From positions 1-35,654 of the forward strand of contig JACQUD010000015.1 of assembly GCA_016210485.1 (NCBI GenBank): a stretch of DNA of 35,654 nucleotides. Direction: 5' to 3'. A program made the position numbers and the translations under genes. Below, one piece after another: positions 142 through 28,180 of this stretch. This DNA is from Chloroflexota bacterium (GTDB lineage: Bacteria > Chloroflexota > Dehalococcoidia > JACQUD01). The notes beneath the pieces were generated by a model. That model had not been told where the DNA came from and ran no database searches. It saw nothing but the letters and a program-made list of their open reading frames with translations. Each line of letters starts with the position of its first letter. Within the stretch, counting starts at the first letter, position 1.

Positions 142-152
142 CCGCGGATAGT

Positions 153-224
153 GGGCGGCACTGCACATTAACCCCTGACTACTTGCGTGTGAAGCAAACG
201 CTCTTACCGCTGAGCTAGCCGCCC
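153..224 (-). tRNA. tRNA-Val-like (CAC anticodon), T-arm degenerate; possible pseudo-tRNA
   Basis: Perfect acceptor GGGCGGC/GCCGCCC, D-stem GCTC/GAGC, anticodon arm TTTGC-TTCACAC-GCAAG; the T-stem (AGGGG vs GCAGT) does not pair and the loop TTAATGT lacks TTCRA; no encoded CCA. Confidence 0.65.
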
Positions 225-8167: not shown

Positions 8168-9052
8168 TCACCGAGCGCGCTTTCCCCAGCTCAGCCCACC
8201 GTCCTCGCTCTTGTAGACTAGGCCTTGTTTCTCCTTTATAGCGATGGCTAGCACGACCTGGGGTTTTGCCGGACTCACTGCCACTGATATGGCGTTGTCA
8301 CCTGGGAACGGGAGCTTATCCCATGAGGTGCCTCCGTTGGTGCTCTTGTAGAGGCCACCATCTGTGCAGGCATAAACCGTCAGGGGGACATTGGGATCTA
8401 CCGACAAAGCCGTCACAGTAAGTGAGCCAAGGCCGTTCACGGCGCGGGCCCAGTTCTGGCCTCCGTCGATGCTCTTAAGCACACCCGAGTTCATGCTGCC
8501 AGCGTAGAGTATCTCCGGCATGCCCTCGGCCGCTGCTAGTGCCATGATATCCTGCGGAAGCTGGCTGCTGAGCTTGTGCCATACCTGACCGCCATCATCG
8601 GATTGGAAGAGGCCAAACCTTACTACAAAAGCGTAGAGGCGATCAGAGACGTCTAGGCTCATGGCGAAGCCATGGATATCAGTACCCGGAAGGTTGTGTC
8701 TGATCGGCTGCCAGGAGGCTCCGCCATTTGTGCTCCTCTGGAAGATGTCGTGGCCAGCCAAATAAACTTGGCTGGGGTCAGACCGGCTTACGCCGAGGGC
8801 CATGGCATCGAAGTTGGAGCGGTTCACTAAGGAACTCCATGTCTGGCCTCCGTCGTCGCTCCGCATTATGCCATTGTGGTGGCCGAAGAAGACGATATTG
8901 GAGTCGTTGGGACTGAAGGCCAGGGCATGGAAGTCGGTCGTTCGCAGCACCGACAGGGCACTACTATTGCCACCGCATCCTGCTCCCAGGGCAAGCGCTA
9001 TTGCAGTGAGGAGCGCAACCATGAGGAAGCGTCGCCTCGGTTTTAGTGTCAT
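8168..9052 (-). CDS. lipoprotein with BNR/Asp-box repeats (YCF48/sialidase-like beta-propeller)
   Basis: Lipobox-like ALGAGCGG; repeated SDDGGQTW, STNGGASW, SDDGGQVW, SIDGGQNW, STNGGTSW, SEDGGLSW. Confidence 0.85.
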   Translation of the reverse strand: MTLKPRRRFLMVALLTAIALALGAGCGGNSSALSVLRTTDFHALAFSPNDSNIVFFGHHNGIMRSDDGGQTWSSLVNRSNFDAMALGVSRSDPSQVYLAGHDIFQRSTNGGASWQPIRHNLPGTDIHGFAMSLDVSDRLYAFVVRFGLFQSDDGGQVWHKLSSQLPQDIMALAAAEGMPEILYAGSMNSGVLKSIDGGQNWARAVNGLGSLTVTALSVDPNVPLTVYACTDGGLYKSTNGGTSWDKLPFPGDNAISVAVSPAKPQVVLAIAIKEKQGLVYKSEDGGLSWGKRAR

Positions 9053-9121
9053 TTATTTAGGAGATTGGTTCCTGATTTCGATGTGCCGATATAGTATATC
9101 GCAGTTATGAGCCGCACTGCC

Positions 9122-10664
<1,543 letters not shown>

Positions 10665-10672
<8 letters not shown>

Positions 10673-12479
10673 GGAGGTCTGCCTCCTTGTGAGCTGGGGT
10701 TCGCTGATGAAAGAGTTGCTTCAAGTTTTGAGCTGCGGCCAGGCTGCTGCCCTCGGCTTCCAGGTCAGCCCCGGCCTGTATCAGATGTCTCAGGCTTCGC
10801 TCTTGAAGGCGGCTGAGGCATTGTGCCAGGGCCTGCTCGGCTTCACGAGGGCTCAGGGGCATAGCACTGGCCACCCCCTGGCGATAGCGTTGGGCCCGCT
10901 CATAGGGGTTGGGGGGGAGAGGCCTTTCTTCCAGCCCCAGGATTTCATCCAGGTGCTCCGCCAGGGCCGGCTCCAGGCCGGCGCGCATCGCATCCAGACT
11001 ACCCGAAGCCAGCCATTGGCCGAGCAGCTCCCGGTTCTCTGTGCCAAGGAAAAGAGCAGGGGACGTCTCTCCGGCCTGGGGGGCATAGTGGAACAGGAGG
11101 TAGAGGCAATATTCCTCCAGAGGGTCCCGCCAGGTGAAGGCCGTATCCGCAGGGGAAGCCCCAGCGCGGGAAGCCCGTCCCAGGAGGGCAGCTTGTTGCA
11201 TCAAGGTCCTCTCAGAAACGCCTGTGAGCCGACTCAGCTTGCCCAAATATAACTCCCGTTCTACCGGGCCTTCCACCTCTCGAATATAAGGCAACAGTTT
11301 ATTCACCACCATTGAGGCCACTTGGGGTCGGCTAAGGTCCACCCCAGCCATGGCGGTTTGGAACAGGTAGTCCATGAGGGGGAGGGCCGAGGCCACCAAC
11401 CTCTCCCACTCCTGGGGACTGCGATTTATGACTTCATCCGGGTCCTGGCCTTGAGGCAGGAGGGCCACCTTTATCTCGGCCTGGAGTCGCTCCGATGCCC
11501 CCAGGAAGTCGGGCACGGGGAGCTGTGTCCTCTCCAGAGCCTGGCGGGCGGTCTGAATGCCGCGAAGGACGGCCTCATTCCCGGCGGCGTCAGCGTCCAG
11601 GGCCAGCACCAGACTCCGGGTCGCCCCTTTGAGGAGGGCCACCTGTCGAGGGGTGATGGCGGTGCCCATGGAGGCCACCACGTTCTTGAACTCGCCTTGG
11701 TGGGCAGCGATGACATCGAAGTACCCCTCTACCACCACAGCCTCTCTTTTACCTCGGATAGCCGGGAGGGCTTTATCCAGGCCGTAGAGGGAACCGCCCT
11801 TATCGAATATAGCGGTCTGAGGGGAGTTTAGATATTTGGGCTGGGAGCCATCCAGCTCCCGTGCCCCGAAGCCTGTGGCCCGCCCCTGGCTATCACGGAT
11901 GGGAAACATCAGACGGCCCCGGAAGAGGTCCAGCTTGCCTTCATCCCTGGCCAGCCCGGCGGCCAGAATGTCCTGAGCTGTCCCTCCTTTGCCTCTCAAA
12001 TGCTCTGTAAGGGCGCGCCCGCTGCGAGGGCTGTAACCGAGCTGGAAATCGGCGATGCTCTGCTTTCCGATGCCCCTTTTCTCCAAATAGCTCCGAGCTA
12101 TACCAGCCTCGGGGCTTTCCAGAAGCGCTCGGTGGTAGAACTCGACGGCGGACTGATTCAGCTCGAAGATGGGCTGGCGCTGGCTGGCCTTCTCCTTTTC
12201 TCTAGTTAAGGTTACACCCGCTTTGTCTGCCAGGAGGCGCAGCGCTGCACCGAAATCCAGGTTCTCTTTCTTCATCACCAGGGATAAAACATCGCCTCCA
12301 GAGCCACAGCCGAAGCAATGCCAGCTTTGTTGCTCTGGGAAGATGTAGAAGGAGGGGGTCTTCTCAGTATGGAAGGGGCACAGGGCCTTGAAGTTGCGCC
12401 CAGATCGCTGTAGAGGCAGATAGCCCGAGGCCACAGCTACAATATCCAGCCTCTGCTTAACTTCGGAGATGTCGCTCAT
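10665..12479 (-). CDS. dnaG: DNA primase
   Basis: CHC2 zinc finger [25 protein letters not shown], toprim [14 protein letters not shown] and LALDADAAG; overlaps rpoD by 8 nt. Confidence 0.96.
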
Positions 12480-24694: not shown

Positions 24695-25285
24695 TCACTC
24701 CAGGGGGGCCTGAGAAGAAAGGAGAAAGGCTGCCAGACAGCGATAGCGGGCTCCTTGCAGGGTGAGGGTGCTTTGCATCAGGCTCACCTGCTCTACCCGG
24801 AAGGGACCGAGAGGCTCTGGTGGCAAAGCTTGAGCCGCCTCGCCCAGGCGCCGCCTCTCCCCCGCCGCCGCCCCCTCTCGGACCCTCCCCAGGGTGAGGT
24901 GAGGGGAGAAAGAGCGAGATTCCCTGAGGTAATGCAGGGAAGCCATGGCCTCCTCCACCGAGGTCTGGAGGGCCACCAGGGAATCGGGGGCCTTCAACCC
25001 TATCCAGAGGACGCGAGGTGACATCAGGTTGGGGAACCCCCCAAGTCCCTCCACCTCCACTATGAAGGGCGATATGCCCTGGGCGAGCTGCCCCAGAGCC
25101 TGGCCTATGACCTCCACTTGGTCGGTGGGGACCTGCCCCAGGAACTTCAGGGTGAGGTGGATGCCCTCGGGCTCCACCCATTTCACTGAAGAGAAACGGG
25201 GGCGGAGCTGGGCCTGAACTCGAGCCAGCCCCTCCCGCAGGGCTGGAGGCAGCTCTACAGCTATGAAGGCCCGCACCGACTCCAC
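24695..25285 (-). CDS. thpR: RNA 2',3'-cyclic phosphodiesterase
   Basis: RAFIAVELPPALREGL, two H-x-T-x motifs HLTLKFLG and HLTLGRV. Confidence 0.92.
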   Translation of the reverse strand: MESVRAFIAVELPPALREGLARVQAQLRPRFSSVKWVEPEGIHLTLKFLGQVPTDQVEVIGQALGQLAQGISPFIVEVEGLGGFPNLMSPRVLWIGLKAPDSLVALQTSVEEAMASLHYLRESRSFSPHLTLGRVREGAAAGERRRLGEAAQALPPEPLGPFRVEQVSLMQSTLTLQGARYRCLAAFLLSSQAPLE

Positions 25286-26130
25286 TAGCGCTTTTCCAAC
25301 AGCCGGCGGGCGTTCCCTCCCAGCAGTAGATCTTCTATTTCTTTCTCCAGGCCCAGCTCCCGAACCCGACCCAGGGCTTCAGCCTGGGAGATAAGGGGAT
25401 AATCGCTGCCGAAGAGCACCTTATCGGGCCCTACCAGCGATGTCACCAGGGAGTAAATCTGAGGCCGGTAGAGCAAGTGAGAGGCGGCGGTATCGAAGTA
25501 GACGTTTTTCAGGGCCTGGGCTACCTCGGGCATAAGGCTGTAGAAAGGAAGCCCACCCCCCCAGTGGGCCGCCACCAGAGGCAGGTCCGGGTAGAGGCGG
25601 CAGAAGGCATATAGCTGATCCGGGGTGATAGTCCCTTTGCCGGGATAATGGTGCCCCACAGGCTCTGAAGCGTGTATAAGAAAGATGAGGCCCCACCTCA
25701 TCGCCTCGGAGACCAGGGGGGTGAGGAGGGCTTCATCCTTTAAGCTGTAGCCCTGGACATCGGGGCGGAGCTCTCCCAGCCCCCTGGCCCCGCCTTTGGC
25801 GCACCGGGCAAGCTCATTGATAGCGGCCTCCCCAGCCCGGGGCTGGACGGCGCAGAAGGGGACCAGCCTATGGGGATAGCGCGCCGCCGCCTCCAGAAGG
25901 TAATCGTTGGTCTCCACGCAGAGCGCGTGCTCAACCCAGCCGATGTTGAGGGCCACTGACTTCTCCACGCCGGCCCGGTCCATGCTCTCGATAAGCTCCT
26001 CGGCGGTGGCAAGGCTAGCCTTAGGGTCAGAGTAGAGGGCGACGAAGGTAGCATCGCGCTTCAGAAGCTCGGAGTGCCGCTCCTGAACCCAGGGAGGGAA
26101 CAGATGAGTGTGAAAATCAACCGCCATCAA
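25285..26130 (-). CDS. amidohydrolase-family (TIM-barrel) metal-dependent hydrolase
   Basis: VDFHTHLFPPW, LIFLIHASEPVGHHYPGKG, PLVAAHWGGGLPFY, KVLFGSDYPL; 1-nt overlap with thpR. Confidence 0.9.
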   Translation of the reverse strand: MMAVDFHTHLFPPWVQERHSELLKRDATFVALYSDPKASLATAEELIESMDRAGVEKSVALNIGWVEHALCVETNDYLLEAAARYPHRLVPFCAVQPRAGEAAINELARCAKGGARGLGELRPDVQGYSLKDEALLTPLVSEAMRWGLIFLIHASEPVGHHYPGKGTITPDQLYAFCRLYPDLPLVAAHWGGGLPFYSLMPEVAQALKNVYFDTAASHLLYRPQIYSLVTSLVGPDKVLFGSDYPLISQAEALGRVRELGLEKEIEDLLLGGNARRLLEKR

Positions 26131-26248
26131 AGGAAATTATAGCACAAGGGCGCTTCTAGGCAGCTTGACCGAGGGGCCACTGGCTTTTATAATGGGCGCA
26201 GCGTAGCGTTAATCATGACAAGAAGATAGCTCTATCTATATTTCCATA

Positions 26249-26276
26249 TGGAGCGGGCGAAGGGATTCGAACCCTC
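26249..26276. repeat. 28-bp direct repeat, distal copy of tRNA-Gly 3' end (att-like)
   Basis: tggagcgggcgaagggattcgaaccctc identical to 27182-27209 inside tRNA-Gly. Confidence 0.9.
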
Positions 26277-26362
26277 CCAAATATCAAGGGCCTCTTGACA
26301 GCGGGCGGCTTGCAGTGTATGAAAGGACTGCTAAGCAAGAAGGGCGTCAAGGAGGTGCAGGC

Positions 26363-26914
26363 GTGAAGGCTACAACTCTTATCATCCTAGCCTTAGTCGT
26401 GGTCGGCATGCTGGCAACCGCTTGCCAGAGCAAGCCGAGTGAGGAGGAGCTAAGGGCCTTAGTAGCCGCAGAGGTGAAAACGCAGTTGGCAAGCGTGAAA
26501 CAAGGGCCACCAGGCCCCCAGGGGCCACGAGGCCCAGCAGGTGAGCGAGGGCTAGCTGGGCCACCAGGGGAGCAAGGCCCGACCGGGCCAGTAGGTGCTC
26601 AAGGGCCTGTAGGCCCGCAGGGGAGTCCTGGCCCTTCACCGAGAGCAGAACTACAGGCGGAACTGGACAAGCTAAATAACACCGTATATGGCCGATTTCT
26701 ACTGGATGGCTTGGAGGCTACAGTCAAGACGCTGAAGACAGACCTAGCCGCCTTGCAAGCGCAAGTCGGTTCCAAGAGGCTTTTCAGCTCTAGCCTGGAG
26801 ACAAGGGTAAGCAGCCTGGATGATACAATGGCTAAAGTGATAGTGTGTCTAAGAGCGCCCGTTACCTATAATAGCTTTTCTGGCGTGTCAAGGCTATCAT
26901 GTTTCCCGCCATGA
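26363..26914 (+). CDS. collagen-like repeat lipoprotein
   Basis: GTG start with SD ggaggt 6 nt upstream; signal/lipobox [10 protein letters not shown]; 15 G-X-Y triplets [45 protein letters not shown]; coiled-coil-like C-terminal region. The ORF track opens at 26315. Confidence 0.8.
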
Positions 26915-27181
26915 GGCTTGCCTGGGGGTTTCGTCTAGCGCCTCTTTGTGTGTCTCCACCAAGTGGCACACATTCGGCTAGCTTTGGGGCCGGCCCCAGG
27001 GCAGCGCAGTTCGGCAGCTCAGCGCACGCCCAAATACCCCAGGCTGCCCCCTTTTCTCCCTATCTTGGCCTAACTCGCCCAGGGTGTTGGTCTCTCCGTG
27101 TCCGCCCGTGTTAAGGCACAAAGGGGAGAGAGCTTTGACAGAAGGGTCAGCACGCCCTATAACTGGCAATGATGGAACCAT

Positions 27182-27256
27182 TGGAGCGGGCGAAGGGATT
27201 CGAACCCTCGACGTCTTGCTTGGGAAGCAAGCACTCTACCACTGAGTTACACCCGC
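27182..27256 (-). tRNA. tRNA-Gly (CCC anticodon)
   Basis: Reverse complement GCGGGTGTAACTCAGTGGTAGAGTGCTTGCTTCCCAAGCAAGACGTCGAGGGTTCGAATCCCTTCGCCCGCTCCA; complete cloverleaf with encoded CCA. Confidence 0.95.
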
Positions 27257-27274
27257 CCGCATAACGGATTATAG

Positions 27275-28180
27275 GTGGGGAGGCTAGAGGTGTCAACGGT
27301 GCTGCTCACCGGCGCCACGGGGTTCGTGGGCCGGAACATCGCCCGGGAGCTGGCCTCGCGCCAGGTGTCTTTACGTTGCCTGGTGCGCCGCTCCTCAGAC
27401 CTCAAGCCCCTGGCCGGGCTGCCCCTGGAGCTGACCTATGGCGACGCCACAGACGAGGCGTCCCTGGAGGCAGCTTGCCGGGATGTTCACACGGTCATCC
27501 ACCTGGTGGCGGTCATCCGGGAACGGGGCCGAGCCACCTACGAACTCATCAACCGTCTGGGCACTGCCCATCTGGTGCGGGCCGCCCAGCGGGCGGGGGT
27601 GAGGCGGTTCATCTATATGAGCAACATCGGCGCCAGCCCCGACCCCACCTACCCTTTCCTCCGCTCCAAGTGGCAGGGAGAGGAAGAGGTCAAGGTCAGT
27701 GGCATCCCGCACATCGTCTTCCGTTCCTCCCTCATGTTCGGCCCCGAGGACGAGTTCACTCGCAAGCTAGCCCAGCTGGTCAGGCTGACCCCCATCGTCC
27801 CTATTATCGGCTCGGGGCGGACCCGCTTCCAGCCCATCTTCGTGGCCGATACCGCCCGCTGCGTCGCCCTGGCCCTGGGGTCCGAGGCTTACCTGGGGCG
27901 GACGATAGACATCGGCGGCCCGGAGCACCTCACCTACGAGGAGATGGTGGACGCCATCATCGCTGCCCTGGGGCGGCGCCGCCTCAAGCTCCACCTGCCT
28001 ATCCCCATCATGAGACCGCTGGTCTGGCTCATGGAGCGAGTCCTGCCCAACCCGCCCGTGACCTCGGGCCAGCTCAGGATGCTCTCTGTGGATAACATAA
28101 CCTCGCCCGACGCTGTGGAGCGAACCTTCGGCTTCAAGCCCGTCGGGTTCCGGCAAGGCTTGAGCTACTTGAGGACCTGA
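27275..28180 (+). CDS. NAD(P)-binding atypical SDR / epimerase (complex I NDUFA9-like)
   Basis: VLLTGATGFVGRNIARELASRQ, RRFIYMSNIGA, RSSLMFGPEDEF; GTG start at 27275 or at 27290 (after ggggagg). Confidence 0.88.
   Translation: MGRLEVSTVLLTGATGFVGRNIARELASRQVSLRCLVRRSSDLKPLAGLPLELTYGDATDEASLEAACRDVHTVIHLVAVIRERGRATYELINRLGTAHLVRAAQRAGVRRFIYMSNIGASPDPTYPFLRSKWQGEEEVKVSGIPHIVFRSSLMFGPEDEFTRKLAQLVRLTPIVPIIGSGRTRFQPIFVADTARCVALALGSEAYLGRTIDIGGPEHLTYEEMVDAIIAALGRRRLKLHLPIPIMRPLVWLMERVLPNPPVTSGQLRMLSVDNITSPDAVERTFGFKPVGFRQGLSYLRT

Follow-up and report, generated by a model that had tools for sequence, protein, structure and literature searches.

How did a single lipoprotein gene come to lie between an intact tRNA gene and an exact copy of that gene's 3' end, with no integrase beside it? 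The question is raised by a locus in a 35,654-nt stretch of DNA, here called the window, that belongs to assembly G000 (1,235,940 bases in 76 contigs, 69% complete). The original prediction was that the locus had formed by site-specific integration into the tRNA gene, and that the DNA between the copies was either a decayed element or a minimal cargo cassette moved in trans. The part concerning site-specific integration is upheld by the analysis given here, while the two origins were not separated from one another.

The 3' end of tRNA-Gly(CCC) is duplicated around the islet

The features of the locus, from left to right, are as follows.

24695-25285: thpR-like (2'-5' RNA ligase-like) gene, adjoining the amidohydrolase gene
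25285..26130, minus strand: amidohydrolase gene of the left flank (PF04909)
26249..26276, minus strand: truncated copy of the tRNA-Gly(CCC) 3' end, read as the distal att site (exact 28/28 match to 27182-27209)
26277..27181, no strand: 905-bp islet without integrase, between the two repeat copies
26295..26323, plus strand: likely promoter of the lipoprotein gene, TTGACA-17-TATGAA, assigned by consensus and lying inside a 5' block conserved in genome G036
26363..26914, plus strand: collagen-like lipoprotein gene, GTG start, 183 aa (ORF; Pfam Collagen PF01391, E 2.9e-8)
26925..27008, plus strand: conserved non-coding segment 3' of the lipoprotein gene (74% DNA identity to G036:C59:520-605)
27182..27256, minus strand: intact tRNA-Gly(CCC), the target gene, its 3' end read as the proximal att site (ARAGORN; Rfam RF00005, 69 bits)
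27275..28180, plus strand: NAD-dependent epimerase-like gene of the right flank (PF01370)

The 28-mer TGGAGCGGGCGAAGGGATTCGAACCCTC is present with 0 mismatches at both 26249-26276 and 27182-27209, as had been predicted. With up to 3 mismatches allowed it occurs at just these two sites in the 35,654-nt window, and at none in 100 shuffles. Identity between the copies is exactly 28 bp, with neither edge extending further. Across the whole G000 assembly the 18-base core of the repeat is found at two sites only, both within the window; the 28-mer is thus not a dispersed repeat, the alternative named beforehand. The right copy forms the 3' end (T-arm, acceptor strand, discriminator and CCA) of the intact tRNA-Gly(CCC) on the minus strand, a gene with its own promoter, a perfect TTGACA-17-TATAAT at 27296-27268 (minus strand). 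At the left copy neither ARAGORN nor Rfam detects a tRNA, consistent with the claim that this copy stands without the remainder of the gene.

Stretches around the Rfam-found tRNA genes of G000, G036 and G025 were scanned for exact 18-mers of each tRNA lying outside the gene itself. Among the tRNA neighbourhoods examined, the window tRNA-Gly(CCC) was the only G000 tRNA with a nearby non-tRNA 3' fragment. Derivation of the fragment from tRNA-His was considered, given a similar 3' end (2 mismatches, in related genomes), but was rejected as the match to tRNA-Gly is exact. Elsewhere in the window, a tRNA at 152-224 (minus strand) that adjoins tRNA-Leu(CAG) is recognized by Rfam (38.7 bits) and missed by ARAGORN.

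The islet carries one convincing gene

The two copies are 933 bp apart from start to start, leaving a spacer of 905 bp that holds only one convincing gene, the collagen-like lipoprotein of the original prediction. The encoded protein has a signal peptide with lipobox (LATAC), about 15 Gly-X-Y triplets and then a hydrophilic tail, and from this layout is likely a cell-surface collagen-like lipoprotein. A well-matched Shine-Dalgarno sequence, aggaggtg, lies ahead of the gene at 26350. The conserved segment behind the gene folds weakly better than shuffled sequences (z -1.7). The GC content of the islet (57.8%) is ordinary when compared to 905-bp pieces of the sampled genome (59.2%, SD 4.3), and composition therefore gives no hint of foreign origin.

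Searches of the islet with tyrosine recombinases of its own and related genomes returned neither an integrase nor a remnant of one, as anticipated. Two tyrosine recombinases were detected in the assembly, both of XerD/XerC type by NCBIfam, and the genome has no match to PF07508 Recombinase. Beyond these XerC/D-type enzymes, no cognate or helper integrase was seen in the assembly, which is 69% complete with about 31% missing.

Two further candidates were tried for the islet and discarded. A reading frame crossing the junction of the joined circle, as would be expected of a gene split by attP, has no Pfam match; its downstream half is unconserved as protein in G036, where the corresponding DNA is promoter-like. 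Viral contigs matching the lipoprotein were rejected as relatives because they have the collagen stretch alone in common, which in the two contigs read lies amid phage structural genes. A comparison of the lipoprotein with phage records gave no match.

Similarity to a relative of the islet begins at the repeat edge

A search of 393 class genomes with the islet DNA gave a single clear relative, G036:C59; the other, weak matches are collagen-coding repeats or short alignments. The closest relative of the lipoprotein, G036:C59:133, is 53% identical over residues 1-68. Common to the window and G036 are the promoter region, the lipoprotein N-terminus and the non-coding block behind the gene. The similarity to G036:C59 sets in about 3 bp or less from where the 28-bp copy ends on the islet side, as predicted for an integration joint. 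The G036 lipoprotein gene sits at a contig end with no recognizable tRNA beside it.

No other sampled genome of the class has the islet at this site; the outcome raised beforehand against integration, the same content in all relatives, was thus not seen. An empty site with a single copy of the repeat was found in none of the 393 class genomes, which hold no genus or family mate; this is attributed to the sample including no close relative. Nor was an excised circle found.

The neighbourhood of the islet is rearranged

On the left, the pair of amidohydrolase and thpR-like genes is kept in the relatives examined. On the right, relatives of the epimerase-like gene occur in Chloroflexota and Planctomycetota, and no tRNA adjoins those scanned. 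Upstream of the amidohydrolase gene a strong promoter-like site, TTGACC-17-TATAAT at 26165-26193 (plus strand), points into the islet and has no gene behind it except that of the islet. Several relatives instead carry, next after the amidohydrolase gene, a divergent transketolase gene served by a TATAAT-like promoter. The place of that gene is occupied in the window by the promoter-like site and the islet, indicating that the neighbourhood has been rearranged, and a syntenic empty site could not be reconstructed. Loss of the transketolase through insertion of the islet was rejected as a direct consequence, since the genome has this gene at another place.

The same tRNA 3' end in other genomes and viral contigs

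The 3' pattern of tRNA-Gly(CCC) is found in 88 of 393 class genomes, ten of which have at least 2 copies. Fragments of the 3' end without a tRNA, besides that of the window, are present in five genomes (G126, G086, G149, G180 and G030, the last with two). In G180 the intact tRNA-Gly(CCC) 3' end is followed immediately by a Phage_integrase gene, which encodes a tyrosine integrase. Viral contigs hold 93 stretches that match the 28-mer when its variable base is written as Y. Among the copies read across viral contigs, the class genomes and the window itself, 56 partial 3'-end copies stand outside any complete tRNA; for 32 of them a tyrosine-integrase-like gene lies no more than 2.5 kb away. As a control, the tRNA-His 3' end was found in 2 copies in 1/16 genomes, against 10/88 for tRNA-Gly(CCC); numbers of this size are too small for a difference to be claimed, and the idea of tRNA-Gly(CCC) as a hot spot relative to other tRNAs was dropped.

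Most of the other fragments reach the anticodon (about 45 bp), whereas the window copy ends in the T-arm at 28 bp. The integrase responsible would then belong to another sublocation class, unless the copy was once longer. In the fragments of G126, G086 and G149, three genomes of one family, the motif aattaccg adjoins the repeat, which suggests a single element lineage. An integrase-less region also extends for 6.1 kb from tRNA-Gly(CCC) to its 45-bp fragment in G126 (L185, G126:C24, 4499-10697), with a cargo of PIG-L, GNAT, glycosyltransferase, FemAB-like, metallo-beta-lactamase and DinB genes. In G036 an 84-bp exact repeat with two complete tRNA-Gly(CCC) genes surrounds a 0.78-kb islet (L086, G036:C57, 147-1095) which has no integrase and carries a DUF2204 nucleotidyltransferase gene together with a small ORF; the two may form a toxin-antitoxin-like pair. 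Among 146 genomes of the class DUF2204 has a patchy distribution, being present in 11.

Two other arrangements were observed at this tRNA end. The viral contigs L219 (9485 and 10196) and L249 (792 and 1503) each have two inverted copies of the tRNA-Gly 3' end, 711 bp apart, flanked in L219 by divergent tyrosine-integrase-like ORFs at 8191-9342 (minus strand) and 10492-11706 (plus strand). The G125 contigs C111 and C182 (end of L196, start of L197) overlap by 121 bp and one stops exactly at the CCA of tRNA-Gly(CCC), suggestive of a mixed population behind this gene.

Comparison with known integrase-less islands

Cis-mobilizable elements (CIMEs), as described among ICESt1-related elements, keep their att sites and have no genes for integration or transfer (PMC5704250). 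The islet resembles them in being bounded by attL and attR from the 3' end of its target gene, in the exact 28-bp direct repeat, and in carrying cargo only, with no integrase or transfer genes and no visible sign that such genes were earlier present. It differs in its tiny size (0.9 kb, one gene), in having no known sister ICE or IME, and in the lack of a neighbouring element for accretion. Neither remnant genes of an ICE or IME in the islet nor an intact sister element among the 393 class genomes were found.

Islands at the ssrA (tmRNA) gene of Dehalococcoides, of which 15 have no integration module and were proposed as possible cis-mobilizable elements, have a 20-bp repeat, the serine recombinase DsiB and a cargo that often includes reductive dehalogenases (PMC3146451). 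They share with the islet a site of integration near the T-loop, direct repeats derived from a tRNA-like 3' end and probably their class of bacteria, Dehalococcoidia going by the names of the nearest named relatives; in the islet, however, the target is tRNA-Gly(CCC) rather than ssrA, and the genome is without PF07508, which sets it outside this group. Tycheposons, which range from 4 to 200 kb and carry a tyrosine recombinase (PMC10872708), are similarly cargo-bearing and bounded by a tRNA, yet at 905 bp and with no recombinase the islet is not one of them. A complete and a partial tRNA copy also serve as bounds in elements of about 9-23 kb that leave partial tRNA genes on integration (PMC9897764), compared to 0.9 kb here. 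The islet boundaries fit a tRNA end rather than the attC/attI joint of an integron cassette. As integrase-less, att-bounded islands have already been described, also in Dehalococcoides, the missing integrase of the islet is not new in itself.

Origin of the islet

That duplication of a tRNA 3' end marks an integration event, as first proposed, is well supported at this locus by the inclusion of the CCA, the sharp edge in the T-arm, the edge of the G036 similarity, the five genomes with fragments and the integrases near viral copies. The islet is therefore read, with reasonable though incomplete confidence, as a decayed element that once integrated at the tRNA-Gly(CCC) 3' end by site-specific recombination. 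In such an event the incoming element would have brought a copy of the tRNA 3' end with which the gene at 27182-27256 was rebuilt, and the original 3' end, displaced to the far side, would remain as the 28-bp fragment at 26249-26276. Later deletion would have taken the integrase and all else, leaving one cargo gene with its own promoter. The recombinase was probably of the tyrosine type, and the small size would stem from deletion rather than from an originally small element. Given a helper integrase, the att sites might still recombine. The anatomy is CIME-like, with att sites kept and the integrase lost. Decay is deduced, as no integrase remnant is present in the islet, and this absence counts against it, as do the ordinary GC content, a copy of 28 bp rather than about 45 bp, and the lack of an empty site among the sampled genomes.

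An unlikely alternative is that the islet is a minimal one-gene cassette, never provided with its own integrase, which another element's tRNA-Gly(CCC)-recognizing integrase inserted in trans. The lipoprotein gene is whole, has both a promoter and a ribosome-binding site and is surrounded by no remains of other genes; G036 has another sub-kb integrase-less islet (0.78 kb) at the same tRNA, and a tyrosine integrase at tRNA-Gly(CCC) is known in the class from G180. Against it, no second integrated copy was found at a tRNA, the G036 lipoprotein gene having none recognizable beside it, and XerC/D-type enzymes aside there is no helper integrase in the MAG (69% complete). An extension of this idea, by which sub-kb single-function cassettes with the tRNA-Gly(CCC) 3' end as their sole mobility determinant move in trans, and the window (lipoprotein) and G036 (nucleotidyltransferase) islets are two members of an overlooked class too small and too short of integrases for island catalogues to admit, is speculative and judged quite improbable.

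It is also rather improbable that the tRNA 3' end was duplicated or recombined by a rearrangement that was not site-specific, the gene between the copies having arrived by ordinary means. The two complete tRNA copies in G036 are also compatible with a duplication or with a circle that recombined homologously, and the left flank keeps the rightward promoter at 26165-26193 where several relatives have transketolase, but such a process gives no reason for a duplication to end exactly at the CCA and inside the T-arm, with the copy exact and the remaining tRNA absent. A misjoin of two genomic places at the shared 28 bp is very improbable: assemblers usually need an overlap longer than 28 bp, and the error must also have put the complete tRNA, in matching orientation, 0.9 kb further along one and the same contig. 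This holds even though the assembly is fragmented, incomplete and probably a MAG, and although the G125 contigs that end and begin at tRNA-Gly(CCC) with a 121-bp overlap indicate that the site disturbs assemblies.

Small islets and gene turnover at tRNA genes

The islet is a known kind of remnant that is unusually small, and its size, below the 2-kb limit of a large island catalogue, is chiefly what makes it interesting. To enter that catalogue, TIGER/Islander, an island must have an integrase gene and be no shorter than 2 kb (PMC12424338), and islets of this kind are consequently unlisted there. For the locus itself the meaning is modest: tRNA-Gly(CCC) is documented as an integration site in the class, with a surface lipoprotein as cargo. 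Should tRNA genes often harbour one-gene islets, the turnover of genes at such sites would be underestimated.
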